A stretch of 64,000 bases of DNA from Mycobacterium sp. UM_CSW (GTDB lineage: Bacteria > Actinomycetota > Actinomycetes > Mycobacteriales > Mycobacteriaceae): positions 62,001 to 126,000 of the forward strand of contig NZ_AUWQ01000022.1 of NCBI RefSeq assembly GCF_000455205.1, read 5' to 3'. Made by a program: the position numbers and the translations under genes. Shown here in pieces: positions 1,731 through 28,881 of the stretch. Numbering within the stretch: position 1 is the first letter of the stretch; each line of letters opens with the position of its first letter. The notes under the pieces were generated by a model. It saw only the letters and a list, made by a program, of their open reading frames with translations, was not told the origin of the DNA and did no database searches.

Positions 1731-1753
1731 GAACACTATGACAGATGTTGTAT
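1731..1753. promoter_or_regulatory. Operator-like site, family 1, site 1
   Basis: GAACA, then 13 bases, then TGTAT, in the divergent promoter between the VOC gene (start 1707) and the dehydratase operon (start 1812). The inner part reads CTATGAC followed by AGATGT. The ACA...TGT arms, the TA and the C match four other sites in this window (6639, 15750, 17525 and 28600). A TetR-type operator is inferred. Confidence 0.6.
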
Positions 1754-1811
1754 ATCTGGGGTAGCGTTCGGTGGTCAGTTCGGCAGCCGCCGCGAAGGGA
1801 GACCGAGCAAG

Positions 1812-2303
1812 GTGAATGACACCCTGATCAGCGACCGTCTCGCGTCCGTGCTCGGCGTGTGGCACGACCAGGGAGCACCGTCGGCCCCCATCGACCGGTC
1901 CGACATCCGGCGTTGGGCGATTGCGACGTACTGGCCTCAGCGACCACCCCGTTTGTACTGGGACGAGAACTACGCGCAAACCACGCGATGGGGCGGCATC
2001 GTGGCTCCCGATGACTTCAATCCGTTCGCCTGGCCCATCGAACCGCTGGACACGGGCGCGACGAAATACGCTTTCCCGCGCCCCGGCGAACCGGGGCAGC
2101 ACCTGCTCAACGGCGGAGTGGAACTCACCTTCGGCCAGCCGATGCGCCCGGGCGACGTGATCACGGGGCGGTGGCGGATCAGGGACGCCACCGAACGCCA
2201 GGGGCGTCTTGGACTGATGCTGTATGTCGCAATCGAGCGCGAGTTGCGCAACCAGTATGCGGACTTGGTGCGCACCCGAGTCGACACCGTAATCCGGTAC
2301 TGA
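1812..2303 (+). CDS. MaoC/FAS1-like dehydratase-domain protein
   Basis: This is a 163-residue single hot-dog protein of the MaoC dehydratase N-terminal (FAS1-like) type. Visible family features are the aromatic stretch PPRLYWDENYAQTTRWGGIVAP, where the substrate-positioning segment lies, and the core strand-helix part GGVELTFGQPMRPGDVITGRWRI. Proteins of this kind usually pair with a second MaoC chain to form a heteromeric enoyl-CoA hydratase, and a second MaoC-like chain is encoded at 3749 in the same operon. The start is GTG at 1812 with purine-rich AAGGGAG upstream. The gene diverges from the VOC gene and probably shares operator site 1. Confidence 0.8.
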   Translation: MNDTLISDRLASVLGVWHDQGAPSAPIDRSDIRRWAIATYWPQRPPRLYWDENYAQTTRWGGIVAPDDFNPFAWPIEPLDTGATKYAFPRPGEPGQHLLNGGVELTFGQPMRPGDVITGRWRIRDATERQGRLGLMLYVAIERELRNQYADLVRTRVDTVIRY

Positions 2304-2324
2304 ACCGAGAGGACTGATGCGGCG

Positions 2325-3752
2325 GTGTACATCAACGGCGAATGGGCATCGTCGGTGTCTGGTGCCACGTTCGACAGCGCGAACCCGGCTACGGGCGCCG
2401 TCCTAGGCGCCGTGCCCGACGGTGGCCGCGCAGAGGCCCGAGCGGCGATCGACGCCGCGGCCGCCGCGTTGGCGGGTTGGCGGGCGAAGACCGCTTACGA
2501 GCGGGCCGATGTCCTGATCGCCGCGCACCGCATCATGCTCGACCGGCTCGAGGAGCTGGCGACTCTCATGACCAGAGAACAAGGCAAACCGTTGAAGATG
2601 GCGCGCACAGAGGTAAAGTACGCCGCCGACTTTCTGCTCTGGTTCGCCGAAGAGGCCAAACGCGTTTACGGCGAGGTCATTCCGTCTGCGCGGGCCGACC
2701 AGCGTTTCCTTGTGCTGCAACAGCCCGTCGGGGTGTGCGCGGCGATAACGCCGTGGAACTACCCGATCTCGATGATCACCCGCAAGGTGGCGCCCGCACT
2801 GGCCGCGGGATGCACCTCGGTGCTCAAACCCGCAGAGCAGACGCCGCTGTGTGCGATCGAGACGTTTCGGGTGTTCGCCGACGCGGGCGTGCCGGCGGGG
2901 GTGGTGAACCTAGTGACCTGCTTGGAACCGCAGGCCGTTGCCGACGTGATGCTGTCCGATGCCGCGGTACGCAAGATTAGCTTCACCGGATCTACGACCG
3001 TCGGCAAGATGATCGCCCAGCGGGCAGGCGCCACCATGAAGCGGGTATCAATGGAATTGGGCGGGCACGCCCCCTTCCTCGTATTCGACGACGCCGACCC
3101 GGCGCATGCCGCCAAGGGCGCTGCCCTGGTGAAGTTTCTCAATACTGGGCAGGCCTGCATCTGCCCCAACCGGTTCATTGTCCACCGATCGATCGCCGAC
3201 GAGTTCATCGCGACACTGTGCACCCGGGTTGAAAAGCTCGTTCCCGGTGACGGATTGGCGAACGGCACGACGGTGGGACCGCTGATTGACGCCGCCGCCC
3301 TGCAGAAGATGGAGCATCAGGTCACCGATGCCGCGGATAAGGGCGCAAAGGTGCTGATCGGCGGATCGCGATTGTCGGGAGGGAGTTTCGACGACGGTTG
3401 GTTCTTCGCTCCGACCGTCCTGTCCGACGTGAGCGCCGACATGTTGATCTGCACCGAGGAAACATTCGGGCCGATCGCGCCGGTGCTGGTGTTCGACGAC
3501 GAAGCCGAGGCGATCGAGCTCGCCAACTCCACCAGCTACGGATTGGCCGGGTACGTCTACACGCGCGACATCAGCCGCGCGCTCAGGGTGGCAGAGGCTT
3601 TGGAGTTCGGGATGATCGGCATCAACGACATCAACCCCACCTCCGCGGCGGTGCCCTTCGGCGGCATCAAGGACAGCGGGTTGGGCCGCGAAGGCGCACG
3701 AGCGGGTATTGCCGAATACCTCGACACCAAAGTATTGGGGATTGCTCTGTGA
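2325..3752 (+). CDS. NAD(P)-dependent aldehyde dehydrogenase (succinate-semialdehyde type)
   Basis: This is a 475-residue aldehyde dehydrogenase, the usual family length, oxidising an aldehyde to its acid with NAD(P)+. Key residues are visible: Asn145 in ITPWNYP, general base Glu244 in MELGGH, and nucleophile Cys278 in GQACIC, with the E-[ST]-F-G-P motif near residue 385. It is closest in style to the GabD/succinate-semialdehyde branch. The start is the GTG at 2325: the frame is closed upstream by the dehydratase stop at 2301-2303, and GAGAGG at 2307 serves as ribosome site. The nearby ATG at 2317 is out of frame. It is the middle gene of a three-gene operon and overlaps the next start. Confidence 0.88.
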   Translation: MYINGEWASSVSGATFDSANPATGAVLGAVPDGGRAEARAAIDAAAAALAGWRAKTAYERADVLIAAHRIMLDRLEELATLMTREQGKPLKMARTEVKYAADFLLWFAEEAKRVYGEVIPSARADQRFLVLQQPVGVCAAITPWNYPISMITRKVAPALAAGCTSVLKPAEQTPLCAIETFRVFADAGVPAGVVNLVTCLEPQAVADVMLSDAAVRKISFTGSTTVGKMIAQRAGATMKRVSMELGGHAPFLVFDDADPAHAAKGAALVKFLNTGQACICPNRFIVHRSIADEFIATLCTRVEKLVPGDGLANGTTVGPLIDAAALQKMEHQVTDAADKGAKVLIGGSRLSGGSFDDGWFFAPTVLSDVSADMLICTEETFGPIAPVLVFDDEAEAIELANSTSYGLAGYVYTRDISRALRVAEALEFGMIGINDINPTSAAVPFGGIKDSGLGREGARAGIAEYLDTKVLGIAL

Positions 3753-4498: not shown

Positions 4499-5320
4499 TC
4501 ACCCGTCAAGCAGCATTTTGGCCATCGGTGTGCCCGGGGGGAAGGCCTCGGTAATCCCGGCGCTGAGATACCCCGAGTCGGTGACCAGCGTGATGCCGTT
4601 GACGACAGTGGCGGCATCGCTACACAGGAAGAGCAACGGGTATGCCTGTTCCGCCGGGGTGGCGGCCGACACGCCGACCTGCTCCCGATAGTCGGCGCCG
4701 AAATCCAACCAGATTTCCTTGTTCGCCTGCGCCAACGGCGTGTCCGTCGGCCCGGGGCAGATCGCGTTGATACGAATGCCGTCGGAGATGAACTGCATGG
4801 CCTCCCGCGCTACGTACGCACAGACCGCCTGCTTGGTGAACATGTAGTGCGCACACCCGTGATCAACCGCCCACGCCGATGCCGCTTCGAAGTCGGCGAT
4901 GTCGAGAAACTCGTTGAGCTGCAGCATGTTCGAACGCCAGGCCAGCCCGGCTGCTGAGGATATGAAGCCGATCGCAGAACCCCTGCGCAGCATTCCCTGC
5001 GCACGCAGCCGCTCGATGAGGTGGCGGTGCCCGATGAAGTTGATCCTTTCGATGCCGGGCCCGTCCGCGACACCCGCGCACGCGAAAAGAGCGTCCACTC
5101 GGCCACCGCATTCCCCGACCGCGGCGTCGATACTGGCCTTCTCGGCGAGGTTGACTCGAATGGCGGTCACGTCCGGTATGTCGCAGGGTGCGTAGTCCAT
5201 GACAACCACCTCAGCACCTGCGTCCAAGGCTAGCCGTGCGGTGGCGTTGCCCATCCCGGTCGCTCCCCCGACCACGAGAGCACGCTTACCGCGGAACGCG
5301 AAGGCATCGAATAAGCTCAT
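4499..5320 (-). CDS. Short-chain dehydrogenase/reductase (NAD-preferring)
   Basis: This is a 273-residue classical SDR, an NAD(P)(H)-dependent alcohol/ketone oxidoreductase. The nucleotide motif GGATGMG lies near residue 18, and the acidic residue at the end of strand 2 (VVMDYA) favours NAD(H). Further on are the FACAGVAD strand, the catalytic serine region FISSAAG and the Y-x3-K pair in YMFTKQ. The insertion between serine and tyrosine (NMLQLNEFLDIADFEAASAWAVD) is longer than in typical SDRs and resembles 3-alpha-hydroxysteroid-dehydrogenase/carbonyl-reductase-like enzymes. It lies 100 bp downstream of the P450 on the same strand, so oxidation of the P450 product is a reasonable guess. Confidence 0.85.
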   Translation of the reverse strand: MSLFDAFAFRGKRALVVGGATGMGNATARLALDAGAEVVVMDYAPCDIPDVTAIRVNLAEKASIDAAVGECGGRVDALFACAGVADGPGIERINFIGHRHLIERLRAQGMLRRGSAIGFISSAAGLAWRSNMLQLNEFLDIADFEAASAWAVDHGCAHYMFTKQAVCAYVAREAMQFISDGIRINAICPGPTDTPLAQANKEIWLDFGADYREQVGVSAATPAEQAYPLLFLCSDAATVVNGITLVTDSGYLSAGITEAFPPGTPMAKMLLDG

Positions 5321-5420
5321 CGGTCGGGCCCCCTCCGGCCGTTGGACTCATCACTCATCGACTCTGTTCGCTGTTCGACAGCAAGCGACGAGGCGTTAAG
5401 GTCGTCCGCAGCGCCGGTGG

Positions 5421-6617
5421 TCATAGCGCGATGGGAACGCTGGACGGGCCACGTACCGAGCTGGTGTGAACGAACTTCACGGTGGCCTCGTCGACGCCCC
5501 ATGTCGGGAAACGCTTCAGCGTCTCTTCCAGCGCAACCCGCGCCTCCAATCGCGCCAGCGCCGCGCCCAAACAGAAGTGTGAACCGTGTCCAAAGCTGAC
5601 GTGGCGTATGCCGGTTCGCGTGACATCCAACTCGTCTGGGCGCTCGTACTGGCGCTCGTCGCGACCCGCCGAGCCGGTCAGCAGTGTCACCTTTGACCCA
5701 GCAGGGATCACCGTGTCGTGGTATGTGACATCGCGCAAGGTGAACCGGCCTTGGACTGGTGAGGGCGCGTCGTATCGGAGCAGTTCCTCGACCGCGCCAC
5801 CGATCAAGCCGGGTTCGGCGACCAACTTCGCACGCTGCTCCGGGTTGCGCGCCAGGGTCAGCGCCGCCCAGCCGAGAAGCCTGGCGACCGTCTCATTGCC
5901 CGCAACGTTGATCATCGCGACGAACATCAGCAGTTCGCCATCGTCCAGCCGGCGTGGTTCCGCCCCGGGCAAGACGAGGTCGGAAACCATCAGATCGCTG
6001 ACAACGTCTTTCGTCCTGTGTTGGCGGCGGAGTTCGATCTGCTGCTGGTAATAGCCGAAGAGCTTCGCCGAGGCCTCCGCTCCGGCGGCGTTGCGCTCCG
6101 TACTCCCTTCGTCGCGATGCAGCTGCGCGTCCGACCACACACGCAGGTTGTCGTGGTCCTCCTCTGGAAAACCGAGCAGCGAGCTGATCACCATCACCGG
6201 CAGCTTGGCGGAGAAGTCCTCAACGTAGTCGAACCCACCGGTGCCGACATATTGATCCAGATAGCCCTTGCACAGTTCGCGGATGTGGTCCTCCAGCTGG
6301 GCAATTCGGCTACGAAAGAACGTCCGGTTGACCATCTTTCGCAGGCAAGTATGGTCTGGGGGATCCATCATGATCATCGGCTGAGGCGCGGGCAACGGTT
6401 CCTCGCTGATCGTGTCCAGGATGATGCCGTGCTCAGACGAGAATGATTCGGTGTCCAGCGACGCCGTCATGACGTCGTCAAACCGGCTGAGGGCGTAGAA
6501 CTCGTATTCTGGGTTGTAGTAAACAGGCGCTTCGTCCCGCATGCGTCTCCACACCGCATATGGGTCGGCGTGCAGCGTGCGGTCGTAGGGATCCCAGCGC
6601 AAGTCCGTCGTTGTCAT
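5421..6617 (-). CDS. Cytochrome P450 (bacterial class I)
   Basis: This is a 398-residue soluble P450, a haem monooxygenase. Visible motifs are the I-helix oxygen-activation segment AGNET (239-243), the ExxR pair Glu278-Arg281, and the haem-binding loop FGHGSHFCLGAALAR with Cys349 as iron ligand. The start is placed at the ATG at 6617, preceded by GGAAGGA. A longer reading from GTG at 6644 would run through operator site 2, which argues against it. It diverges from the enoyl-CoA hydratase at 6727. No ferredoxin lies next to it; the one at 29723 is beside another P450. The substrate cannot be told from sequence, but actinobacterial P450s of this type commonly oxidise terpenoids, steroids or fatty acids. 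Confidence 0.93.
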   Translation of the reverse strand: MTTTDLRWDPYDRTLHADPYAVWRRMRDEAPVYYNPEYEFYALSRFDDVMTASLDTESFSSEHGIILDTISEEPLPAPQPMIMMDPPDHTCLRKMVNRTFFRSRIAQLEDHIRELCKGYLDQYVGTGGFDYVEDFSAKLPVMVISSLLGFPEEDHDNLRVWSDAQLHRDEGSTERNAAGAEASAKLFGYYQQQIELRRQHRTKDVVSDLMVSDLVLPGAEPRRLDDGELLMFVAMINVAGNETVARLLGWAALTLARNPEQRAKLVAEPGLIGGAVEELLRYDAPSPVQGRFTLRDVTYHDTVIPAGSKVTLLTGSAGRDERQYERPDELDVTRTGIRHVSFGHGSHFCLGAALARLEARVALEETLKRFPTWGVDEATVKFVHTSSVRGPSSVPIAL

Positions 6618-6638
6618 CGACACCATCCTTCCGGCTTT

Positions 6639-6661
6639 GAACACTATTACAGAAAATGTCT
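6639..6661. promoter_or_regulatory. Operator-like site, family 1, site 2
   Basis: GAACA, 13 bases, TGTCT, between the divergent P450 (start 6617) and crotonase (start 6727) genes. Its first 15 bases match site 1 except for one position (CTATT for CTATG). The octamer CACTATTA recurs once more at 6668-6675, giving a direct repeat around the promoter. Confidence 0.6.
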
Positions 6662-6726
6662 AGTAGCACTATTATGCGTTAGCATTCTCGGTACCCGGCG
6701 GGAACGAGCTTCAGGAGGAACTTCAG

Positions 6727-7539
6727 GTGGAAACGCGAGAACTGGCCCACGTCGTCTACGAGAAGGACGGGGCGATCGCGCGCATCATCCTGAACAACCC
6801 GGATCGCGCCAATGCGCAGACGTCCGAAATGGTGCACAGCGTCAACGAGGCACTCGACGACGCCCAGTACGACTATGGCATCAAGGTCGTCATCATCAAG
6901 GCCAACGGCAAGGGGTTCTGCTCCGGTCACATACCGGACGGCAGTTACCCGGAGTTCAAGGCCGAGAGCGAGGCGTCCGGCAAGATCTGGCGCTCGGCGG
7001 CGCAGCTGTTTCTCTGGCCCGTTCTGAAGCTGTGGGAGTTCCCGAAGCCTGTCATCGCGCAGGTGCACGGGTACGCGATCGGAGGCGGCACCACCTGGGC
7101 GCTGATCCCCGAGATCACGGTGTGCAGTGAAGATGCGTGGTTCCAGATGCCGCTGGTGCCCGGCTTCGGCTTGCCCGGATCGGAGACGATGTTCGAGCCG
7201 TGGGTGTTCATGAACTACAAGCGCGCCGCCGAGTACCTCTATACGGCACAGAAGATCACCGCGGAACAGGCTTTGGAGTTCGGCTTGGTGAACCGTGTCG
7301 TGCCAGCCGACCGGCTGGAGGCCGAGGTCGAGGAACTGGCGGCCAAGATCGCCAAGGCGCCCCTGATCACGTTGCAGGCGACCAAGGCCGGCATTCTGCG
7401 GGCGTGGGAGACCATGGGCTTCCGGACGCACCAGCAGGCGAGTAACGACCTTCAGGCGGTCGTCACAGGCTCCAAGGAGTTCTTGGACTACATGGTCGAG
7501 CTCATGCAGAAGGCTGCCAAACCTGCCGACCGGATCTGA
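6727..7539 (+). CDS. Enoyl-CoA hydratase/isomerase (crotonase) family
   Basis: This is a 270-residue crotonase-fold enzyme. The oxyanion-hole segments are GFCSGHIPDG (about residue 60) and HGYAIGGGTTWALIPE (about residue 115), which hold the thioester carbonyl. The family covers hydration, isomerisation and C-C cleavage of acyl-CoAs, so the exact reaction is open. The GTG start at 6727 has a clear AGGAGG at 6713-6718. It is the first gene rightward from the divergent P450 promoter carrying operator site 2, so it is probably co-regulated with the P450. Confidence 0.85.
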   Translation: METRELAHVVYEKDGAIARIILNNPDRANAQTSEMVHSVNEALDDAQYDYGIKVVIIKANGKGFCSGHIPDGSYPEFKAESEASGKIWRSAAQLFLWPVLKLWEFPKPVIAQVHGYAIGGGTTWALIPEITVCSEDAWFQMPLVPGFGLPGSETMFEPWVFMNYKRAAEYLYTAQKITAEQALEFGLVNRVVPADRLEAEVEELAAKIAKAPLITLQATKAGILRAWETMGFRTHQQASNDLQAVVTGSKEFLDYMVELMQKAAKPADRI

Positions 7540-8028
7540 TACCCCCACCCGACCGGTGCCGATCCTTCATGATGCGATTCAACTCGAGAGCACCGTCACT
7601 CGGTGCGAGCGCAACCGAGTTGTACTCCGCGGCACTGGATGTGGCCGCATGAGGCCAGACGCGCGGTCGCGTGATCACCGTCCTGTGCGAATAGCACTGG
7701 GCGGGATATCGCCAGCTGGAAGCTTCGGTGAGAAGTGTTGCCCGCCGACGAGGGCTGGCGCATCGACGTCGTACGCGCGGGTCTTAACCGGGGCGTCGTG
7801 GACCCGCGGGCGTGAGTGGGTGACGGTGCCTGATGATCGCCTCAGTGTCTTGTGCGCCGGACCGATCCAGGATCTCCGCTGGGGCGTCGAGCGGGGGTGT
7901 CGGTGAACGGTGTACCTCACCGAGGCGCCGGTTTTACAACGGGCCGTCTCCGGTCGCGCGAGCCCGACGGACGCCGCGATCCGTCGGCGGCGCCGGGGTC
8001 GGCGTGTTCACCATGTCCTGAGGCGGCA
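7540..8028. other. Intergenic region, no gene recognised
   Basis: About 490 bp lie between the crotonase and the next aldehyde dehydrogenase. An open frame runs into the dehydrogenase from 7852, but its translation is arginine/proline-rich and unlike the family, so it is treated as non-coding. No operator of the shared families was found here. Confidence 0.45.
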
Positions 8029-9624
8029 ATGACGGTCGCCAGCGAACCGAGAGGCGGTGCGGTAACAATGGCGGACTTGCAGGCCCTGCACGGTAACCAG
8101 CGAGCGGCGTTCGTGCGGGAGGGACCGGTGACTCTAGACGCGCGGTGCACGCGGATCGACGCGCTGGCGTCAATGTTGCTTGACAACGCCGATGATCTCG
8201 CCGATGCGATGAGCACAGACTTCGGATGCCGCGCCCGGTCAGTGTCGCTGTCGTCGGATGTACTGGCGTCGATTCTGAACATGGAGCACACGCGCTCGCA
8301 CGTGGCCGAATGGATGCGACCGCGCCGGTTGAACCGCTTCGGCAGGCGCGGCATATGTGCCGATCTGCAACCCGACCCCCTCGGCGTGGTGGGGGTGGTC
8401 GCCCCATGGAATTTCCCCATACAACTCGCGGTAGTTCCGGCCGCATCCGCACTGGCGGCGGGCAACCGGGTGATGATCAAGATGTCGGAAAAGACGCCGT
8501 GCACCGCGGAACTGGTCGCCGCTTTGGCCGGCGCGTATTTCCACCCCGACGTGTTGACGGTGATCACCGGTGGCCCGGAGGTCGCGGCAAGGTTTTGCTC
8601 ACTGCCGTTCGATCACCTGTTCTTCACCGGATCAACCGATGTCGGCAAGAAGGTCATGGCCCTGGCGGCCGAGAACCTCGTGCCAGTGACGTTGGAACTG
8701 GGCGGGAAGAACCCGGCCGTTGTCGGCACCGACGCCGACGTGCGACAAGCGGCCGCGCGCCTCATGGGCGCACGGCTCGTCAACGGCGGTCAGGTGTGTC
8801 TGTGTCCGGATTACGCGCTGGTCCCGCGTGCCCGCATCGACGAATTCGTTGCTGCCGCGCTGTCGGCGGCGCGCAAGGCGTTCCCCGACCCCCTGCGTGA
8901 TCCGAATTACTGCTCGTTGATCGACCGAGCGGCCTACGAGCGGATAGTGGGCCTGATCGAAAACGCGCGAGAGCTCGGAGCGACAGTGAGAACGGTTGCC
9001 CCGCAAGGGCAGCCGTTCGCAGATGCCGCGCGACGTAAGGTTGCGCCCACGGTCCTGACTGCGGTCACCGGCCAGATGAGCATCGACGGCGAAGAGGTGT
9101 TCGGGCCAGTATTGACTGTGTACGGCTACGACAACGTCGACGAGGCGATCGAATTCGTCAATGCCCGTCCCTCGCCGCTGGCGGCCTACTGGTACGGGCC
9201 GCGTTCGCAGGATTTCGAGCGGTTCTCCCGGAGCACCCGCAGTGGTGGTGTGTCGCGGAATGAGTTCGCGCTGCACGCAACACTGAACGCGGCGCCCTTC
9301 GGCGGCGTCGGTTTCAGCGGTATGGGCGTCTACCACGGAAGGTTCGGCTTCGACACGTTCAGCCACTACAAGCCGGTGGTGGGCAGCGACTTGCGGTTCA
9401 ACTTGCTGTCGTCGGCGTCGTCGCTGTCTCCGGGAGCGTTCTCGGCTCGTGTCACGTCCGCGGCGATACGGGCGTACGCCAAGAGGATCTCCCGCCGGAG
9501 GACTTCAACGGGCCAGCTTTCCGACGGGAGCGAACGGCGCGGTCAGGCGCCCGTCCAGCCTCTCGGCGAATCTGATTTCCCGGCGCGCCACCATGCCTTC
9601 GATGCGCTGGGTGGCCAGCGGTGA
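8029..9624 (+). CDS. Coniferyl-aldehyde-dehydrogenase-type aldehyde dehydrogenase, extended C-terminus
   Basis: This is an aldehyde dehydrogenase of the compact class-3/coniferyl aldehyde branch. Catalytic residues are visible: Asn128 in VAPWNFP, Glu223 in LELGGK and Cys257 in NGGQVCLC. The start is set at ATG 8029 with GAGGCGG just before it; the upstream reading is not family-like. The conserved fold ends near residue 455 (FGFDTFSHYKPV). A further ~75 residues follow, the last ~40 of them basic or low in family character (from KRISRRRTSTGQ). The tail may reflect a lost stop or an unrelated extension. It is unclear whether this gene and the SnoaL protein 264 bp downstream form one unit. Confidence 0.85.
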   Translation: MTVASEPRGGAVTMADLQALHGNQRAAFVREGPVTLDARCTRIDALASMLLDNADDLADAMSTDFGCRARSVSLSSDVLASILNMEHTRSHVAEWMRPRRLNRFGRRGICADLQPDPLGVVGVVAPWNFPIQLAVVPAASALAAGNRVMIKMSEKTPCTAELVAALAGAYFHPDVLTVITGGPEVAARFCSLPFDHLFFTGSTDVGKKVMALAAENLVPVTLELGGKNPAVVGTDADVRQAAARLMGARLVNGGQVCLCPDYALVPRARIDEFVAAALSAARKAFPDPLRDPNYCSLIDRAAYERIVGLIENARELGATVRTVAPQGQPFADAARRKVAPTVLTAVTGQMSIDGEEVFGPVLTVYGYDNVDEAIEFVNARPSPLAAYWYGPRSQDFERFSRSTRSGGVSRNEFALHATLNAAPFGGVGFSGMGVYHGRFGFDTFSHYKPVVGSDLRFNLLSSASSLSPGAFSARVTSAAIRAYAKRISRRRTSTGQLSDGSERRGQAPVQPLGESDFPARHHAFDALGGQR

Positions 9625-10411: not shown

Positions 10412-11695
10412 CTACATCGCCGTGCGACTGTCGTGACCCATCTCCTGCGGTGATCGGTTGAAGCCCCGCACCATGGCCTGAACGCTGTAGGACGCCGCGA
10501 GTCGGCCGTCGCGGGTGTAGACGCGTCCGTCACCTTGCACCAGACCACGCCCCGACCAGAATGCATGGTTGGAGTACAGCAGCCAGTCAGAGACGTCGAC
10601 GTCATAGTGAAAGGCGATCGTCGCCTTCATGATGCCCGTCGAAAGGGTGCGATGCGCCTCGGCCTCGCCAAATCCTTTGTGCGGTAGCATCCCCGCGGCG
10701 ATCGTCCAGTGCGTCGTGGACTGGGCGAGAAGCGCCCGGTTGAGGTGCGCTTCGCCGGGCGCATCGCGAAATCGCACCCACGACTGGATGAACGGCGGGT
10801 CCACTCGTTGGGGATCCGGATCGTAGGCAGCGTTCACCACGCGGATCTCGCGTCCGGTCATCCCGAACCCGGCGAACGAAACAGCGGCATCCGGCCCGGG
10901 CACCACGGGCATCGGCGGCCCATGGCGCATCACGTCCTCGGCGCCGCTGTCGGCCAACAGGATCCCGGCACTGCGCAGCACGCCGCGTTGGCTGATGCGG
11001 ACTTCTGCAGTCGAGAACGTGCGACCCCGGCGCAGTACGTCGACGTCGACCTCCACGGGCGCGGTGAACGACGCGGCTTTGATGAACGTCATCGACACCG
11101 ACGTCACACGTTGGTCCGGCAGCGTCTTCGAAACCGCGACAACCGCCTGCGCCACGAGCTGACCGCCCTCCACGACGTCGCGCTGCGTCGGTCCGTGGGC
11201 CGGTCCGGTGAAGCGGTGATCACCGGTGGGCGCGACGTCGATCAGCCGAACGAGCTCGGCAGCATCACCCCACAGCGGGAATGTCAGTGAAACGGCGGTC
11301 CCATCCGGCCAACGGTCGACCGCTACGACCCGAAAGGCTGTGTCGTAGAACGACACATGTCCGCGAATCGGTGCGACCTCGGCAAGCGGAGTTCGGTACG
11401 TCCACACCACGTCCGGCTCGACCGATTCGGTACCGGTCAGGTTCCAGTAGGTCGCTTCCCCCTTGAAGGGGCATACGGTCGTCGTTGCCGAGTCGGTGAA
11501 GAGGTTCCAATCAACCGCCTCTTCAGGAAAGTACAGACGGTCCACATGGTCCGTCTCGGTCACGACGAGGCATTTGTCGCTTTCGGCCACCAGGACCTCA
11601 CCCGCCCACACCTGGCCGGTGAATGGAGCAACGGAAATGTCGATCCGGTAGTCGGGGTAAGACGGCCATGCCGACTCCACTTGTGCAGGCGCCAT
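10412..11695 (-). CDS. DUF427 domain fused to acyl-CoA thioesterase (double hot-dog)
   Basis: This is a 427-residue two-domain protein. Residues ~15-115 match DUF427: acidic and aromatic residues around YRIDISVAPFTGQVW, RLYFPEEAVDW, and the tCPFKGEATYW motif. Residues ~160-420 resemble a TesB/acyl-CoA thioesterase-2 type double hot-dog (DVVEGGQLVAQAVVAVSKTLP, SVSMTFIKAASF, and a second half with QSTTHWTIAAGMLPHKG). Acyl-CoA hydrolysis, releasing product or relieving trapped CoA, is the likely role. The start ATG at 11695 has AAAGGAG upstream. It is the last gene of the minus-strand operon that begins with the aldehyde dehydrogenase at 15696, and follows the small gene at 11712 closely. Confidence 0.8.
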   Translation of the reverse strand: MAPAQVESAWPSYPDYRIDISVAPFTGQVWAGEVLVAESDKCLVVTETDHVDRLYFPEEAVDWNLFTDSATTTVCPFKGEATYWNLTGTESVEPDVVWTYRTPLAEVAPIRGHVSFYDTAFRVVAVDRWPDGTAVSLTFPLWGDAAELVRLIDVAPTGDHRFTGPAHGPTQRDVVEGGQLVAQAVVAVSKTLPDQRVTSVSMTFIKAASFTAPVEVDVDVLRRGRTFSTAEVRISQRGVLRSAGILLADSGAEDVMRHGPPMPVVPGPDAAVSFAGFGMTGREIRVVNAAYDPDPQRVDPPFIQSWVRFRDAPGEAHLNRALLAQSTTHWTIAAGMLPHKGFGEAEAHRTLSTGIMKATIAFHYDVDVSDWLLYSNHAFWSGRGLVQGDGRVYTRDGRLAASYSVQAMVRGFNRSPQEMGHDSRTAM

Positions 11696-19818: not shown

Positions 19819-21646
<1,828 letters not shown>

Positions 21647-21753
21647 TGGTGGGTTAGACGGCTCAAACTCGGGGAGTCGCTCGAGATACGGCCACGCGAC
21701 CGGGCGGTCACTCAGGGCATTTGAGCGGACGGCGTCAGGAAAGGAAGTTTGTG

Positions 21754-22839
21754 ATGGCGCAGACGGTACGTGGGGTGATTTCGCGGTCCAAGAAACAGCC
21801 GGTCGAGATCGTCGACGTGGTGATCCCCCATCCGGGTCCCGGTGAAGTCGTCGTGAAGGTCATTGCGTGCGGCGTGTGCCACACCGACTTGACCTACCGC
21901 GAAGGCGGGATCAACGACGAGTACCCGTTCCTGCTTGGCCACGAGGCCGCAGGCACCGTGGAGTCGGTCGGCGCCGGCGTAACTGCGGTCGAGGCAGGCG
22001 ACTTCGTCATTCTGAACTGGCGCGCGGTGTGCGGACAGTGCCGGGCCTGCAAACGCGGGCGCCCGCACCTGTGCTTCGACACATTCAACGCCACCCAGAA
22101 GATGACGTTGACCGACGGGACCGAGCTCAGCCCCGCGCTGGGGATCGGCGCCTTCGCCGACAAGACCCTGGTACACGAGGGGCAGTGCACCAAAGTCGAT
22201 CCCGAGGCCGACGCGGCGGTCACAGGCCTGCTGGGCTGCGGCGTGATGGCCGGCATCGGCGCGGCGATCAACACCGGCGCGGTCAACCGAGACGACACCG
22301 TGGCCGTCATCGGCTGCGGCGGCGTCGGTGATGCGGCCATCGCGGGAGCCGCACTGGTCGGCGCCAAGAAGATCATCGCCGTCGACATGGACAACAAGAA
22401 GCTCGAATGGGCACGCGCGTTCGGCGCCACCCACACCATCAACGCCCGCGACTTCGACGTTGTCGACACCATTCAAGACCTCACCGATGGCAACGGTGCC
22501 GACGTCGTCATCGACGCAGTCGGTCGGCCCGAGACCTGGAAGCAGGCGTTCTACGCCCGCGATCTTGCCGGAACCCTTGTGCTGGTTGGTGTTCCGACCC
22601 CAGACATGACGTTGGAGATGCCGTTGGTCGACTTCTTCTCCCGCGGCGGCTCGCTGAAGTCGTCGTGGTACGGCGACTGCCTACCCGAACGAGACTTCCC
22701 CACCCTCATCAGCCTCTACCGCCAGGGCCGGCTGCCGCTGGAGAAATTCGTCTCCGAGCGCATCGGGCTGGAAGACATCGAGGACGCCTTCCACAAGATG
22801 CACGCCGGTGAGGTGCTGCGCTCGGTGGTGATTCTCTAG
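21754..22839 (+). CDS. mscR: S-(hydroxymethyl)mycothiol dehydrogenase / mycothiol-dependent zinc alcohol dehydrogenase
   Basis: This is a 361-residue zinc medium-chain dehydrogenase. Catalytic zinc ligands appear in CGVCHTDL and GHEAAG, the structural-zinc cluster is [15 protein letters not shown], and the Rossmann motif is GCGGVGDAA. The whole sequence follows the mycobacterial mycothiol-dependent formaldehyde dehydrogenase / S-nitrosomycothiol reductase (M. tuberculosis Rv2259 type), as recalled. It oxidises S-hydroxymethylmycothiol to the formyl thioester and can reduce nitrosomycothiol. ATG 21754 follows AGGAAAGGAAG. Its normal downstream partner, a metallo-beta-lactamase-fold hydrolase, overlaps its stop but is interrupted here. 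Confidence 0.92.
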
Positions 22840-23462
22840 TGGCCGGAATCCAACGACTCGTCACCAGCGGCACGTTCGAACTCGACGGCGGCAGTTGGGA
22901 CGTCGACAATAACATCTGGATCGTAGGTGACGATTCCGACGTCATCGTGTTCGATGCCGCACACACTGCTGACCCGATTATCGAGGCGGTGTGCGGCCGC
23001 AACGTTGTCGCCGTCATCTGCACGCACGGCCACAACGACCACATCACCGTCGCACCCGAGCTCGGCGAGGCGCTCGACGCGCCCGTGTTCCTTCACCCAG
23101 CAGACGCGATGCTGTGACGAATGACGCACCCTGACAAGGACTTCCGTACCATCGGCGATGACGCTGTGCTTACCGCGGGTGACGTCGAAGTCCGCGCACT
23201 GCACACGCCGGGCCACTCGCCGGGTTCGGTCTGCTGGTACGCACCAGACCTCGGCGCCGTGTTCAGCGGCGACACGCTGTTCAACGGCGGCCCTGGCGCC
23301 ACGGGTCGATCGTTTTCAGACTTTCCGACCATCCTGGAGTCGATCTCCGGCCGACTCGGCACATTGCCGGGCACGACCGTCGTCTACACCGGACATGGGG
23401 GCACCACCACCATTGGTGACGAGATCGTGCACTACGACGACTGGGTCGCGCGGGGGCACTAA
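22839..23462 (+). pseudogene. MBL-fold hydrolase (mscR partner), interrupted by one in-frame stop
   Basis: The frame starting at GTG 22839 (sharing a base with the mscR stop) encodes the N-terminal part of a metallo-beta-lactamase-fold hydrolase with the metal motif THGHNDH. It stops at TGA 23115-23117 and continues in the same frame, CGA then ATG at 23121, with the rest of the domain (HTPGHSPGS, FSGDTLF, YTGHG) to 23462. In the M. tuberculosis homologue, as I recall it, a tryptophan precedes R-M-T-H-P-D-K, so a single TGG to TGA change explains the break. Metal ligands are split between the two halves, so neither half alone should be active. Reinitiation at ATG 23121, readthrough or a base-call error are alternatives. 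Confidence 0.85.
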
Positions 23463-23697
23463 CGGATGGACGAGTTCGGTTTTGGCGAAGCGCTGCATGC
23501 GCGGATCATCGCGCAGCAGTGTCATCAGTCCGCGCAGGCGGACATCGGACGAGCGGAAGGAGCGGCGCTCGCTCTCCGGCATCGCGATGGTGATTTACCT
23601 TGATGAATACGAGATGTAACGGCGCGATTGGCCACGCTTGGACTTGAGGTGGGCCAATCGAAGGCCCGCTCTAGAGACTCTGGAAAGGTATGGCGCG

Positions 23698-25191
23698 GTG
23701 GTGAACAAGATCCGACACTGGCTGAACAACGACTTCTTCGCCGGAGCCAACGGCGCCACTGCACTGGTGACCAACCCAGCGACGGGACAGGTGACTGGCG
23801 AGGTGGCGCTGGCCAGCGTCGAGGACGCCCGCGCCGTCATCAACGCGGCGGCTGCGGCGTTCCCGGCGTGGCGCGACACCTCGCTGGCCAAGCGCACGCA
23901 GATCCTGTTCGCCTTCCGCGAGTTGCTCAACGAGCACAAGGGAGAACTAGCCGAGATCATCACCAGCGAGCACGGCAAGGTCGTCTCCGACGCGCTCGGT
24001 GAAGTGTCGCGCGGCCAGGAAGTCGTCGAGTTCTCCTGCGGCATACCGCATCTGCTCAAAGGCGGGTTCACCGAAAACGCCTCAACCAACGTCGACGTCT
24101 ACTCGATCCGTCAGCCGCTCGGTCCGGTTGGCATCATCTCGCCGTTCAACTTCCCGGCCATGGTTCCGATGTGGTTCTTCCCCATCGCGATCGCCACCGG
24201 CAACACCGTGGTGCTCAAACCCTCCGAGAAGGATCCGAGCGCCTCGCTGTGGCTGGCCAACCTGTGGAAGGAAGCCGGCCTACCCGACGGGGTATTCAAC
24301 GTCCTGCAGGGCGACAAGACCGCCGTCGACGAGCTCCTGACGAACGCGAAAATCAAGTCGGTGTCGTTCGTGGGCTCAACCCCGATCGCCCAGTACGTCT
24401 ACTCCACTGGCACCGCGGCGGGCAAGCGCGTACAGGCCCTCGGCGGCGCCAAGAACCACGCCGTGATTCTTCCCGACGCAGATCTGGATCTCGCTGCCGA
24501 TGCGATGGTCAATGCCGGCTTCGGTTCCGCCGGTGAGCGTTGCATGGCCATCAGCGCGTGCGTGGCCGTCGGCCCGATCGCGGACGACCTGGTAGCCAAA
24601 ATCAGCGCGCGGGCGCGCACCATCAAAACAGGCGACGGCACAAAGGATTCCGACATGGGTCCACTGGTGACCAAGGCTCATCGTGACAAAGTAGCTTCCT
24701 ACATCGATGCAGGCGAAGCCGACGGCGCCAAGGTCGTCATCGATGGCCGCAGGATCGAGGCCAACGGTCAGGACGGCGGCTTCTGGCTCGGGCCGACCCT
24801 ACTGGACAACGTCACGCCGGAGATGAGCGTCTACACCGACGAGATCTTCGGCCCGGTGCTGTCGGTGCTACGGGTGGAGACCTACGACCAAGCGCTCGGG
24901 TTGATCAACTCCAACCCGTACGGAAACGGCACCGCCATCTTCACCAACGACGGCGGCGCGGCCCGGCGGTTTCAGAACGAAGTCGAGGTCGGCATGGTCG
25001 GCATCAACGTGCCGATCCCGGTTCCCATGGCATACTTCAGCTTCGGCGGCTGGAAGGCCTCGCTATTCGGGGACAGCCACGCCCACGGCATGGACGGCGT
25101 ACAGTTCTTCACCCGCCAGAAGGCCATCACCCAACGCTGGCTCGACCCCAGCCACGGCGGCATCAATCTGGGCTTCCCCGAGAACAAGTAG
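23698..25191 (+). CDS. mmsA: Methylmalonate-semialdehyde dehydrogenase (CoA-acylating)
   Basis: This is a 497-residue CoA-dependent aldehyde dehydrogenase of valine and thymine catabolism. It converts methylmalonate semialdehyde to propionyl-CoA (or malonate semialdehyde to acetyl-CoA) with CO2 release. Typical features are SPFNFPAMVPMWFFPIAI (Asn151), LGGAKNHAVILPDADLD, which lacks the usual general-base Glu as MmsA enzymes do, and Cys282 in GERCMAIS. The start is GTG 23698 (a second GTG follows) with GGAAAGG before it. The 235 bp upstream hold no recognised gene. It would turn branched breakdown products from the neighbouring operons into propionyl-CoA. Confidence 0.92.
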   Translation: MVNKIRHWLNNDFFAGANGATALVTNPATGQVTGEVALASVEDARAVINAAAAAFPAWRDTSLAKRTQILFAFRELLNEHKGELAEIITSEHGKVVSDALGEVSRGQEVVEFSCGIPHLLKGGFTENASTNVDVYSIRQPLGPVGIISPFNFPAMVPMWFFPIAIATGNTVVLKPSEKDPSASLWLANLWKEAGLPDGVFNVLQGDKTAVDELLTNAKIKSVSFVGSTPIAQYVYSTGTAAGKRVQALGGAKNHAVILPDADLDLAADAMVNAGFGSAGERCMAISACVAVGPIADDLVAKISARARTIKTGDGTKDSDMGPLVTKAHRDKVASYIDAGEADGAKVVIDGRRIEANGQDGGFWLGPTLLDNVTPEMSVYTDEIFGPVLSVLRVETYDQALGLINSNPYGNGTAIFTNDGGAARRFQNEVEVGMVGINVPIPVPMAYFSFGGWKASLFGDSHAHGMDGVQFFTRQKAITQRWLDPSHGGINLGFPENK

Positions 25192-25337
25192 CCCCCGGGC
25201 ACCAGGAGTCGTGCGACATCCATGGATGATTAAATCCACTACAAGCCGTGATCCTGTCCGCTCCGAGTGCGGCGGCAGCCCGATGCGTTGCAAGCCAGGC
25301 CACGAATCTCAAATCCCAAGGAGGAACAGGTACCAAC

Positions 25338-25844
25338 ATGGCTCATGACGACGACCTCACCGAACTGAACAAGCGGCTACGTCGGCTCGAGGACGAGTCG
25401 GCGATCACCCGGCTCGTCATGTCGTACGGCCCTGCCGCTGACGCCGGGCTGACCAGGTTCGCGGGCCAGTTATGGTCCAGCGACGGCGAGTACGACTGGG
25501 ACGCCAACGGCACTGCCTTTCAAGGCAGTGCCGGAGTTGATCGGATGCTGCAGGGCGACGCTCACCAAAGCCTGATCGCTGCCGGCGTAGCCCACTTCAC
25601 CGGCCCCCTCCTGATCGAACTCGGTGATGACACCGCCACTGCGCTCAGTTACTCGATGGTCATGCGGCGTGAAGGCGACCGCTTTTACCTGTGGCGCGTC
25701 AGTGCGGTCCGCTGGGACCTCACGCGGGGCGACTCCGGCTGGCGAGTGCAGCGGCGCACGAACCGCCTCCTCGACGAGACCGGAGCTGGCCGAGAGTTCT
25801 TCGCCGACAGCCTGACCGAGTTGTTCGCCGAAGCCGCCAAATGA
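25338..25844 (+). CDS. SnoaL-like / NTF2-superfamily protein
   Basis: This is a 168-residue NTF2-fold protein: N-terminal helices LTELNKRLRRLEDESAITRLVMSYGPAADAG, then the curved sheet (FTGPLLIELGDDTATALSYSMVMRREGDRFYLWRVSAVRWDLTR). ATG 25338 has a textbook AAGGAGGAAC ribosome site. Its stop overlaps the start of the following SDR (ATGA), so the pair is coupled. A dehydratase, isomerase or cyclase role is possible, and the sequence does not decide between them. Confidence 0.83.
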   Translation: MAHDDDLTELNKRLRRLEDESAITRLVMSYGPAADAGLTRFAGQLWSSDGEYDWDANGTAFQGSAGVDRMLQGDAHQSLIAAGVAHFTGPLLIELGDDTATALSYSMVMRREGDRFYLWRVSAVRWDLTRGDSGWRVQRRTNRLLDETGAGREFFADSLTELFAEAAK

Positions 25845-26635
25845 GCGACGGACCTGGCGGCCGACTCGCGGGGAAGGTCGCGATCATCACTGGGGCCAGC
25901 ACCGGGCTTGGTCCCGTCATGGCGCAGATGTTCGTCCGCGAAGGCGCACGCGTACTGCTGACCGCGCGCCGCGAAGAGCTGGTCCAACAGGCGGCCATTG
26001 CCGCCGGCACTGGCGCGATCGCCATGCGTGCCGACGTCACCCGTGAGGACGACGTCGCGGCAATGGTCACCCGAGCGATCGACGAGTTCGGTCACGTCGA
26101 CATCATGTGCAACAACGCGGCTGCCCCTGGTAAGGATCTGTACATCTGGGAACAGACACTCGAGAACTGGAACTCCACCATCGCGATCGATGTCACCGCG
26201 GCGATGCTGTGTACCCGTGAGGTTCTGAAACGTTCCATGCTGCAACGGCGTTCGGGCGTCATTCTGAATTTCTCCTCCATCGCGGGTTATCAAGGCGTGC
26301 CACGCAAGACCCACTACGTCACGGCGAAGGCGTCACTGCGGGCGTTCACCAAAACGGTTGCGCTGGAAGTCGGCGAGTACGGCATCCGCTGCAACTGCAT
26401 CGTGCCTGGCGGGATCGACACAGACCTGTGGCGCAACTGGGTCAAGCGAACCGCAGCCGAACAGGGCATCGATTACGAAGCACGTCGGGCACAGTTATTG
26501 AAGGGTGTTGCCCTGCACGACATCTCCTCGCCGGAAGACATCGCCAACACGGCACTGTTCCTTGCCAGCGATGAAAGCCGCACGATCACAGGCCAGTCGA
26601 TACCCGTGGACGCCGGCGGTTTCATGCAGGGCTGA
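25841..26635 (+). CDS. Short-chain dehydrogenase/reductase
   Basis: This is a 264-residue classical SDR. The motif GASTGLG with LLTARREE after strand 2 suggests NADP(H). CNNAAAPG, the catalytic serine in NFSSIAG and Y-x3-K in YVTAK are all present, followed by the usual IVPGGIDTD substrate-loop start and DAGGFMQG end. The start ATG lies within the stop of the SnoaL-like gene. It ends convergent to the ligase at 26753. It probably reduces or oxidises a hydroxyacyl-CoA or ring ketone made with the coupled SnoaL-like protein. Confidence 0.88.
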   Translation: MSDGPGGRLAGKVAIITGASTGLGPVMAQMFVREGARVLLTARREELVQQAAIAAGTGAIAMRADVTREDDVAAMVTRAIDEFGHVDIMCNNAAAPGKDLYIWEQTLENWNSTIAIDVTAAMLCTREVLKRSMLQRRSGVILNFSSIAGYQGVPRKTHYVTAKASLRAFTKTVALEVGEYGIRCNCIVPGGIDTDLWRNWVKRTAAEQGIDYEARRAQLLKGVALHDISSPEDIANTALFLASDESRTITGQSIPVDAGGFMQG

Positions 26636-26752
26636 CGCATCCATGGTGAGACTGTCGACATCAGAGTCCCCGGTATTGCAGCGATCGCCGAGATCGACCA
26701 ACCACGTTTGCGCAGAGCATGTATGTCTGCCGCGCGACGGCATATCCGGGTA

Positions 26753-28381
26753 TCACAGGGTTTCGTCGTCAAGCCTCCCCTGGCGAAGTTGTGCGCGCAG
26801 CTTGAACTTTTGGATCTTGCCCGAAGGGGTGCGGGGGAATGCGGTCACGATTCGCACCGACTCGGGCCATTTCTGTCGCGCCAGTCCGGCGGAAGCCAGG
26901 TGTCTGCGAACGTCCTCGAGGTGCGGTCCGCGGTTGTCGTCGAGGACCCTGACCACCGCGACGGCGCGTTCACCGAACCGGTCATCTGGTTCGGCCACCA
27001 CAGCGACCTCGGCAACCGCGGGGAGTCCCAGCAGCAACTCCTCGACTTCCTGGGCCGAGATGTTTTCACCACCGCGGATGATCACATCAGAGATCCGGTC
27101 GGTAATCGTTAGATAGCCGTCGGCGTCGAGGACGCCTACGTCACCGGTGCGATACCATCCCTCGTCATCGAAAACCTCTGCGGTGAGGGAAGAATCGGTG
27201 TAGCCGAGGAAAAGATCCGGGCCCCGGCTGAAGATCTGACCCTGTTCATCCAGCCTGATTTCGACCCCGGGCAACGGATGGCCGTCGGTGGTCAGCCGCT
27301 TTTCTTCGGGCTCGCTGAATTCACACCCGGTGATGGTGGGATGCTCCGAGCTGCCATAGCTACGGATCACCTCGATGCCCAGCGCGGCCAGCCGGCGCGC
27401 GAAGGCCACCGGGACCGGCGCCCCGCCGAGTCCCGCCGCGGGCAGGTGGGAAAGATGGGCTGCTGTGAAATCGGGGTGCTCGAGCACACTGGTGAGGAAG
27501 TACGGCGCCCCTCCTGTGACGCTTACATCCTCGGCGATCATCAGCCGCAACACCTCCGCCGGGTCCCACACATCGAGCAGATTGATGGGCACGCCGCGCA
27601 CCAGCGAGTTCAAGAACGCGCCGAGCATGCCCATGAAGTGTCCGACAGGCGCTCCGGTGAGGGGCGGGGGTCCGACAACTGCGAAGATGCGTGCGCATTG
27701 ACGTGCCTCGAAACCGATGCTGCGGTGCGAGTGGATGACACCCTTCGGGGCACGAGTGGTACCGGAGGTGAACGCGATCATCGCGGGCAAATCGGCCCCG
27801 ACCGCGACGGGTTCAGATAACGGCTCGCAGTCCAGCGCGCAGTCGAACGCGAACGCCCCTGTCGGCAGCGCAGAATCCGAATCCGCGACGATCGCCCACG
27901 GCAACTCGAGGTCGGCGACCAGACCGGCAAGGTTGCCGCAATAATCGACACGCCCAAACCGGTCAGGCGTGATCAACAGCGACGGAGCGCAGTCGCGTAG
28001 TATGTGGTCGAGTTCCTTGTTCCCGTAGAAGTGCACGACGGGCACGATCACCGCCCCCGCGTAGGCAGCACCCCAGAACACGACGGCGGCCTCCACCCAA
28101 TTCGGCAGTTGCATCACGACGACGTGGCCCGGCCCGATGCCACGCCGGACCAACCAACCAGCGAACGACCGCGCCGCCGCGGCCACTTCGCCGATGGTTC
28201 CTCGCCAAGGTCTCAGCTTTGAATGAACAACGAAGGGTAGCCGCTGCGCCTCACGCAGCCCCGCATCAACGAACTCGCCCAAGCTGCGCGAGTCCCACCA
28301 ACCGAATTCCACGTAACGCCGAACCAACTCGGCCGGCACCGCGCGAAGCGGCCACCGAACGCTTGGGGATTGCCGTTCCAC
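26753..28381 (-). CDS. Acyl-CoA synthetase / AMP-dependent ligase
   Basis: This is a 542-residue ANL-superfamily ligase forming acyl-CoA from acid, ATP and CoA. Motifs are the P-loop AFTSGTTRAPKGVIHSH (~residues 208-224), the SYGSSEHPTITG adenylate region, the hinge ITDRISDVIIRGGENISAQEVEE and the catalytic lysine in PRTPSGKIQKFK. The FGWWDSRSLGEFVD beginning is typical of cyclohexanecarboxylate- or steroid-acid-CoA-ligase-like enzymes, but the substrate is unproven. The best start is GTG 28381; the ribosome site (ACGGAG) is modest. A long 500-bp upstream region carries operator-like site 5 about 220 bp before the start. Confidence 0.9.
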   Translation of the reverse strand: MERQSPSVRWPLRAVPAELVRRYVEFGWWDSRSLGEFVDAGLREAQRLPFVVHSKLRPWRGTIGEVAAAARSFAGWLVRRGIGPGHVVVMQLPNWVEAAVVFWGAAYAGAVIVPVVHFYGNKELDHILRDCAPSLLITPDRFGRVDYCGNLAGLVADLELPWAIVADSDSALPTGAFAFDCALDCEPLSEPVAVGADLPAMIAFTSGTTRAPKGVIHSHRSIGFEARQCARIFAVVGPPPLTGAPVGHFMGMLGAFLNSLVRGVPINLLDVWDPAEVLRLMIAEDVSVTGGAPYFLTSVLEHPDFTAAHLSHLPAAGLGGAPVPVAFARRLAALGIEVIRSYGSSEHPTITGCEFSEPEEKRLTTDGHPLPGVEIRLDEQGQIFSRGPDLFLGYTDSSLTAEVFDDEGWYRTGDVGVLDADGYLTITDRISDVIIRGGENISAQEVEELLLGLPAVAEVAVVAEPDDRFGERAVAVVRVLDDNRGPHLEDVRRHLASAGLARQKWPESVRIVTAFPRTPSGKIQKFKLRAQLRQGRLDDETL

Positions 28382-28881
28382 CGGCGCACTCCGTTCTGGT
28401 TTTCAACCGTCCCTAATGCCTGCTAATGCGTTGCCGCCTAACAGCATTGCCGTGGTCGGACCCCGACAACGACGACGTTACGGTGTCTGACGCCCACTTC
28501 CACGTCGCGCTGCCTCCGGGTCTTCGCGTGCCACAGTGAATGCCTCGGCGGCCCGCAACTACTAAACCCATTTGTCTTGTCTCAATCCATCGGACCAATG
28601 AACAGTCCGTGAAATACTGTCCTTCCCCGATGAGAAGGGCAAGACGACTGACGAACGCGCCTCAGGTAGAACAAGCGGCGAACCGGTCGGGGCGCGGCGA
28701 TTACCGGTAGGCACACGCCGTCTCCTCGGAGATGATCGCGTCATTGGAGGTCTCGGCTCACCGCCTGGGTCAGCGCGGAATGTGACCGGCCTCCTGCGGA
28801 GATGCGGAGCGCCTGGGCCGTTGCCTGACTGCCGCTGCCGTGCAGCGCGAAGGCCGTCCGCCGCGGCTCCTAGGGTTGTGC
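28382..28881. other. Intergenic region with operator site, no gene recognised
   Basis: This 500-bp stretch lies between the second ligase and the dehydrogenase ending at 28882. No open frame here has a recognisable translation. It holds operator-like site 5 and is otherwise unexplained; a long 5' leader of the ligase or debris of a lost gene are both possible. Confidence 0.45.
28600..28622. promoter_or_regulatory. Operator-like site, family 1, site 5
   Basis: GAACA, 13 bases, TGTCC; on the minus strand GGACA-GTATTTCACGGAC-TGTTC. In that orientation the inner TA and C fall at the same positions as in sites 1-4. Arms ACAGT/ACTGT give an 19-bp near-palindrome. It lies upstream of the ligase at 26753-28381. 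Confidence 0.5.

Follow-up and report, generated by a model that had tools for sequence, protein, structure and literature searches.

A four-element operator and a TetR subfamily predicted to control a catabolic regulon in Mycobacterium

Here we describe a 31-bp site that recurs in the promoters of catabolic genes in Mycobacterium sp. UM_CSW. The stretch analysed, referred to below as the window, comprises 64,000 nucleotides, bases 62001-126000 of contig C22 (NZ_AUWQ01000022.1), in a genome of 6.39 Mb and 186 contigs. The sites of C22 and of a second contig, C65, share one layout, recur at homologous promoters in other mycobacteria and in Williamsia, and co-occur with genes of one TetR subfamily. 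Judging from these sequence comparisons, it is very probable that the sites are the operators of this subfamily, of which the genome encodes four paralogues, and that its members repress a regulon for the catabolism of hydrophobic compounds until a pathway intermediate releases them.

In the mechanism that we propose, the four paralogues would share the 31-bp operator, which is wide enough for two overlapping TetR dimers and is probably bound in that form. The repressors would sit on their own promoters and on those of genes for P450s, CoA-ligases, CoA-transferases, hydratases, 'amidohydrolase' oxygenases and a fused E1 dehydrogenase (E1). An intermediate of the pathway, plausibly an acyl-CoA, would bind the repressors and lead to their release from the DNA. 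The compound that the regulon serves to break down may be hydrophobic and alicyclic, possibly a (di)terpenoid acid.

The operator and its distribution in the genome

An initial annotation of the window had reported five copies of a 23-bp near-palindrome. The coordinates and letters of all five agree with the window sequence, and in a common orientation each has ACA at positions 3-5, TA at 7-8, C at 12 and TGT at 19-21. A terminal GAACA or TGTTC had been claimed for four of the five, which is an understatement, since on the + strand all five start with GAACA. The shared site is therefore real, but its 23-bp layout is a fragment. When a matrix was iterated over C22, C65 and three other stretches, the matches came in pairs at 8-bp offsets, and the 23-bp register was replaced. 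The full unit is a 31-bp inverted array, ACA-N5-ACA-N5-TGT-N5-TGT, with four triplets at 8-bp spacing and favoured flanks of GA on the 5′ side and TC on the 3′ side. A 23-bp copy spans three triplets of this array, either the first to third or the second to fourth.

This spacing is specific. Among 49 symmetric spacings of the triplets (at most one mismatch) only 5-5-5 is enriched, with 9 sites in UM_CSW, 8 in Williamsia and 58 in Mycobacterium; the other 48 spacings reach at most 1, 1 and 7. The motif carries 1.27 bits per column compared with 0.28 and 0.38 in its flanks, for 23 sites chosen by a score of at least 12 from loci that also trained the matrix.

The matrix used for scoring has 31 columns and was built from 54 sites of other Mycobacterium species, each with at most one mismatch to the four-triplet pattern; UM_CSW itself and Williamsia were excluded. 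The main tests (window ranking, spacing, Williamsia, E1 and co-occurrence) do not rest on overlap with the training sites. With this matrix the five best scores in the window are exactly the five sites of the initial annotation (Table 1), followed by a score of 12.6 inside a TetR gene and then by 7.0. The fifth operator is the weakest of the five and among the most distant from its gene. A further candidate at 54648, upstream of a Phd/YefM antitoxin gene (53997-54299), had scored 21.2 in the first 23-bp matrix and scores only 7.0 in the 31-bp matrix; the direct repeat CATTTAGT there mimicked a 23-bp site, and the candidate was rejected as an operator.

One alternative is that a 23-bp ACA-N13-TGT element is the whole operator, bound by a single dimer, with the fourth triplet being incidental. 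Several sites do have one weak triplet (AGC at 6639, ACC at 28592), and the equal conservation of outer and inner triplets is partly built in, as sites were picked with all four. That said, the 5-5-5 array of four triplets is enriched over every other spacing and over the reversed control, and site scores downstream of the TetR genes split cleanly into two groups, at least 12 or at most -10. We consider a single-dimer operator improbable and continue with the four-triplet unit.

Genome-wide, ACANTAN10TGT matches 23 times, at 22 different places. Because the number of matches equals that of the reversed-pattern control, the signal of the 23-bp pattern lies in its clustering: 14 of the 22 places are on C22 (6) and C65 (8), which together make up 3.1% of the genome. 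Every one of the 7 exact matches that also have GAACA (6 places, one of them palindromic) is on C22 or C65; with up to one mismatch allowed there are 50 matches compared with 36 in the control. The four-triplet pattern at up to one mismatch gives 12 sites in the whole genome and 2 when reversed; 9 of the 12 are on C22/C65 and the remaining three on C2, C8 and C35. Allowing up to two mismatches raises these counts to 56 and 27, with at least 25 of the 56 on C22/C65. Matrix scores of at least 10 occur 24 times in the 144 kb of C22/C65, twice in 1.44 Mb of first-order shuffles of these contigs and five times in 568 kb of 37 distant loci, while a score of at least 12 is never reached in the shuffles.

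In these 144 kb there are 23 sites with scores of at least 13. The 28-kb regulon of the initial annotation thus extends over at least two loci, C22 and C65, while its central idea of one operator linking catabolic promoters is supported by the placement of the sites and by their recurrence at orthologous promoters. Coding regions were checked as well, as had been suggested at the time: the centres of 20 of the 23 sites lie no more than 60 bp inside a called gene, as do 14 of 16 on a Williamsia contig (C10) and 129 of 155 in other Mycobacterium loci. The gene calls are based on GC3 and take the first start codon, so that some starts are too early; this applies to the C65 E1 gene and to a CoA-transferase gene, whose sites consequently count as 'inside'.

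Two sequences elsewhere in the genome resemble the operator. A site on C35 (L005:9207-9237; G000:C35:33209-33235) has the four-triplet layout and lies between another TetR gene and a divergent gene for a FAD-linked oxidase. This TetR resembles the regulon TetR only in the helix-turn-helix (41% over 54 residues), close copies of the site sequence recur in many genomes among the matches listed, and the site is probably a conserved operator of its own adjoining TetR. On C106 (L007:5333) a PPE gene and a divergent TetR gene flank a site-like sequence that scores 19.8 in the 23-bp matrix.

Conservation at orthologous promoters and predicted targets

The initial annotation had proposed that the sites should be conserved upstream of orthologous genes, and they recur in Williamsia, in other Mycobacterium loci and at E1 promoters. 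In the Williamsia genome (G044) a site is found at 13 of 13 homologues of predicted targets compared with 4 of 21 homologues of non-targets (Fisher p = 5e-6). This comparison uses genes with a UM_CSW homologue at 50% or more in six of eight stretches of the genome, two of the six (C3 and C4) having been chosen because they hold sites; C10 is the contig of locus L062. In the Mycobacterium loci the corresponding figures are 128 of 142 and 39 of 252 (p = 5e-51), a p value that is inflated by the relatedness of these species and by the use of their sites in training the matrix.

At the E1 promoter a site is present in 30 of the 30 loci examined, beginning 58-100 bp upstream of the E1 match, and in none of the 30 does one lie inside or downstream in the stretches scored. 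Only one of 600 shuffled upstream stretches reaches the threshold. These loci are 30 of 51 E1 matches, the window's own locus included, and their sites lie outside the training rule because they differ from the pattern at two bases. The E1 homologues form two groups, one of 45 matches at 76% or more in 43 genomes, without an internal stop, and one of 6 matches at about 51% with one stop each, which are probably separate alpha and beta genes.

The window locus has a compact counterpart in genome G185, which includes a 77% orthologue of the TetR encoded at 16650. The sites of this copy lie between the TetR and SDR genes and upstream of the orthologues of the E1, P450/crotonase, Rieske/SRPBCC, CYP268-like P450 and hydrolase genes; they correspond to operators 3, 4 and 2 and to three C22 sites upstream of the window. 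A weaker match (14.4) lies inside a P450 gene. The counterpart of operator 2 in the P450/crotonase pair scores 18.4, and that of operator 3 is near-identical, scores 29.1 and, with the aldehyde dehydrogenase (ALDH) gene missing there, lies about 420 bp upstream of the SDR start.

Could such a pattern arise from shared ancestry or base composition, with AT-rich promoters copied along with the cluster and having no regulatory meaning? Modules have been duplicated in this genome, the closest paralogues being 67-87% identical, and the species compared are related. The reversed-pattern and spacing controls nevertheless largely contradict this explanation. The motif is conserved while its flanks are conserved poorly, Williamsia keeps the sites at all 13 target homologues although it is another genus, and the E1 loci have them only on the promoter side. 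We find an origin by ancestry or composition scarcely credible, and regard the sites as regulatory.

The 23 sites of UM_CSW give 30 predicted target genes among 128 called. The called starts of these 30 genes lie at a median of 41.5 bp from the centre of the nearest site, which suits repressor action. A Pfam search that covered part of the called genes identified among the targets P450s, crotonases, an aldehyde dehydrogenase, an AMP ligase, a CoA-transferase, SDRs, a Rieske oxygenase, SRPBCC proteins, amidohydrolase-superfamily proteins, the fused E1 dehydrogenase and TetR genes. Some of these genes are followed by others for acyl-CoA dehydrogenases, thiolases and further ligases. Several modules are paralogous between C22 and C65 (identities of 75% for the P450, 87% for the crotonase, 79% for E1, 74% for the DUF427-thioesterase and 76% for the Rieske protein), and the C65 P450/crotonase pair carries a site scoring 33.1. 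Other window genes have no nearby site of at least 12, among them an amidohydrolase-superfamily gene (34459-35730), a P450 gene (29916-31157) and a CoA-transferase gene (37101-38327); the products of the first and last are 41-50% identical to those of C65 genes.

The TetR subfamily and its co-occurrence with the operator

Two of the four TetR paralogues are encoded in the window, at 15800 and 16650, and two on C65, all among the sites. One C65 protein, used as the query, is 69-82% identical to the other three, and PF00440 (TetR_N) is detected in all four (6.6e-12 to 3.1e-14). The recognition helix reads SRGT[VI]YRYF in the subfamily (27 rows) and ARGTVYRYF in the protein encoded at 16650, and differs in all five outgroup rows (SRSTIYEYF-like). 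The nearest named loci of the query, over its full length, are in Mycobacterium sp. Marseille-P9652 (98%) and M. colombiense GF76 (94%). An AlphaFold model of one paralogue is all-helical with a TetR fold (mean pLDDT 81.5). Its listed Foldseek matches, which include HapR, FadR, QacR and Rv0078, are TetR-family structures with a probability of 1.00, but with query-normalised TM-scores of only 0.45-0.65. One FadR entry is a complex with stearoyl-CoA, which is a lead for the class of ligand and no test of it.

In a contig scan, relatives of this TetR (71-99% across the part matched) turned up in 43 loci; the carriers are mycobacteria and one Williamsia, and several are fragments that lie at a contig end. 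Across these 721,620 bases the four-triplet pattern matches 60 times with at most one mismatch, compared with 0 for the reversed pattern, and 141 times compared with 10 with at most two. The 37 loci of distant matches have 0 and 7 sites, respectively. A site scoring at least 12 occurs just upstream of the TetR gene in 35 of 43 loci and just downstream in 24 of the 34 with enough sequence; 31 of these 34 have one on at least one side. The counts come from loci that also trained the matrix.

Whole genomes show the same association. In a sample of 118 genomes from the genus, the 15 TetR-positive ones (E <= 1e-60; UM_CSW included) have a median of 10 sites and 13 of them at least 8, compared with a median of 2 and a maximum of 7 in the 103 TetR-negative genomes (Mann-Whitney p = 3.4e-10). 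The lowest TetR-positive genome, G230, has 4 sites in 3.2 Mb. Among 151 genomes from the family, two with a close TetR have 12 and 13 sites and the other 149 have no more than 7. The outgroup TetR, 33-37% identical, was rejected as the regulator; its carriers (G085, G124 and G136) hold only 4, 1 and 3 sites.

The operator might instead belong to another regulator nearby, for example an MftR-like TetR (C65, 46407-47051) or the TetR encoded at 40136 of the window, with the four paralogues as bystanders. There are indeed further TetR genes in the vicinity, and co-occurrence cannot tell the subfamily gene from other genes of the same cluster. On the other hand, the sites flank the subfamily TetR gene in 31 of the 34 loci. 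The G185 and Williamsia loci each carry a subfamily member, and no other TetR is among the best UM_CSW homologues there, though many genes of these loci have no such homologue and received no assignment. Our choice of the subfamily rests on this adjacency and on its being the regulator recognised in both the compact G185 locus and the Williamsia locus, and we judge a different regulator to be very improbable.

Several observations weigh against the regulon as we interpret it, in addition to the limit on co-occurrence just given. The 23-bp pattern has no excess over its reversed control (also 23) across the genome, and the C35 site shows that a TetR outside the subfamily can have the same layout, which alone is therefore not diagnostic. 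Some homologues of non-targets have a site as well (4 of 21 in Williamsia, 39 of 252 in the Mycobacterium loci), and 14 of the 142 Mycobacterium homologues of targets have none. Beside the TetR gene, the downstream site is absent in 10 of 34 loci and the upstream site in 8 of 43. Operators 1 and 5 (1731 and 28592) find no support in other species; neither the G185 locus nor the target homologues of the Williamsia and Mycobacterium comparison include their genes. Finally, related species are not independent samples.

Table 1. Operators, predicted target genes and TetR genes in the window. Scores are from the 31-column matrix; TetR identities are to the C65 query.
Feature	Position	Strand	Context	Score or evidence
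Operator 1	1731-1761		between VOC gene (814-1707, -) and FAS1-type dehydratase gene (1812-2303, +)	21.9; one mismatch to four-triplet pattern
Operator 2	6639-6669		between P450 (5421-6644, -) and crotonase (6727-7539, +) genes	24.5
Operator 3	15750-15780		upstream of ALDH/SDR/ligase/thioesterase genes (15696 down to 10412, -), downstream of TetR gene at 15800	27.6
Operator 4	17517-17547		between TetR (16650-17297, -) and E1 (17576-19594, +) genes	19.1
Operator 5	28592-28622		about 226 bp upstream of called start of AMP-dependent ligase gene (26753-28381, -)	17.8
VOC/glyoxalase-domain protein	814-1707	-	predicted target of operator 1	PF13669
FAS1-type dehydratase and ALDH	1812-3752	+	predicted target of operator 1; putative operon	PF13452, PF00171
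P450 (CYP130-like) and SDR	4499-6644	-	predicted target of operator 2; putative operon	best PDB match of P450 is CYP130, 3.2e-69
Crotonase and ALDH-family protein	6727-9624	+	predicted target of operator 2; putative operon	PF00378, PF00171
ALDH, SDR, acyl-CoA ligase and DUF427-thioesterase	10412-15696	-	predicted target of operator 3; putative operon	
Fused E1 dehydrogenase, enoyl-CoA hydratase, nitronate monooxygenase-like protein, Zn-alcohol dehydrogenase, ALDH and SDR	17576-26635	+	predicted target of operator 4; putative operon extent	
AMP-dependent acyl-CoA ligase	26753-28381	-	predicted target of operator 5	PF00501
TetR-family regulator, paralogue 1	15800-16411	-	listed open reading frame 15800-16513; likely start 16411	TetR_N 6.5e-14; 75% identity
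TetR-family regulator, paralogue 2	16650-17258	-	listed open reading frame 16650-17297; likely start 17258	TetR_N 6.6e-12; 69% identity

The pathway and comparison with known systems

What might the regulon degrade? A (di)terpenoid is a tentative candidate, with the chances somewhat against it. Two of the amidohydrolase-superfamily proteins have DitZ as their best PDB match (8uyr; 1.3e-99 and 2.4e-79), followed by PtmU3. DitZ presumably comes from diterpenoid catabolism, going by its name and by dit nomenclature. Upstream of the window, C22 encodes a P450 that is most similar to CYP268A2 (5.7e-124), an enzyme that acts on branched isoprenoids. PtmU3 is reported to be a member of the amidohydrolase-related dinuclear oxygenases (PMC10811679), and a Mycobacterium strain, sp. 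DhA-55, is listed as a dehydroabietic acid degrader (PMC6891630). Counting against such a substrate, the Rieske alpha subunit searched, one of several present, matches carnitine monooxygenase best, and that weakly (1.4e-27).

An mce-type operon lies at the end of the window (55764-63970), with MlaD and Mce4_CUP1 domains in three of the four proteins searched, and the Williamsia cluster (L019 17073 to L020 4764) has mce homologues (34-55%) inside its site-rich region. These genes suggest uptake of a hydrophobic substrate. On C22 beyond 108,047 there is no place with two mismatches or fewer among the matches listed.

This work provides a concrete operator, named regulators and 30 predicted targets for a large accessory pathway; roughly one in ten of the sampled mycobacterial genomes has it (43 of 396 carry the E1 at 76% or more). 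P450s, Rieske and DitZ-like oxygenases that had no assigned substrate can now be tied to one predicted regulon, and the substrate should become apparent from the inducer that displaces the repressor. With four paralogues to one operator, the system would also be a clean case of duplicated repressors dividing signals between them. We would go further only as a speculation that we ourselves find doubtful: that co-resident paralogues, each sensing a different intermediate, compete or cooperate on the shared four-element operator of a (di)terpenoid pathway in mycobacteria and Williamsia, and that this is the first such regulon to be defined in actinobacteria. A literature search returned no description of the operator or the regulon, although subscription papers were mostly outside its coverage and this is weak evidence of absence. 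One paper lists 11 highly significant mycobacterial TetR motifs, shown as logos (PMC4482099).

In gene content the cluster is similar to the dit clusters for abietane diterpenoids of Pseudomonas and Paraburkholderia, with DitZ-like proteins, a P450, CoA-ligase and Rieske genes. It differs in its regulator, which is of the TetR type here, while DitR is of the IclR type.

Among TetR repressors that control many catabolic promoters the familiar examples are KstR and KstR2 of the cholesterol regulons. The KstR operator consensus differs from our operator, a difference already pointed out in the initial annotation, and a KstR-type regulator was rejected for the one paralogue scanned (NCBIfam KstR score 28.2, cut-off 280). 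Mce3R is the third-best PDB sequence match of a paralogue (9b7y, 9.7e-11), over residues 15-79 only. Mce3R is reported to be a single chain of two TetR halves with a 25-bp asymmetric operator (PMC11667970). The paralogue is a single unit of 203 amino acids and its operator is symmetric, and an Mce3R-type regulator was rejected as well.

The width of the operator points to regulators that bind as two dimers. QacR, CgmR, Ms6564 and CprB mostly control genes for efflux, antibiotics or stress. The Foldseek matches of the paralogue model include QacR; sequence identity to the QacR class is low. The two-dimer operators of these four regulators are reported to be 28, 32, 31 and 22 bp long, respectively, and those of single dimers 15-17 bp (PMC4150764). 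With 31 bp our operator is like these in width, and it has more than two half-elements.

A further parallel is DarR of Mycobacterium and Rhodococcus, which differs in its site (ATACT-N4-AGTAT within 20 bp, not triplets at 8-bp spacing) and in being a c-di-AMP sensor without such a catabolic regulon. Two DarR dimers are reported to read TXC motifs on one operator, each subunit a short motif, and the natural operator has three good half-sites, to which an added fourth improves binding (PMC10636190). By analogy, the operator described here, with four triplets of which one is often weak, appears to fit the DarR plan.

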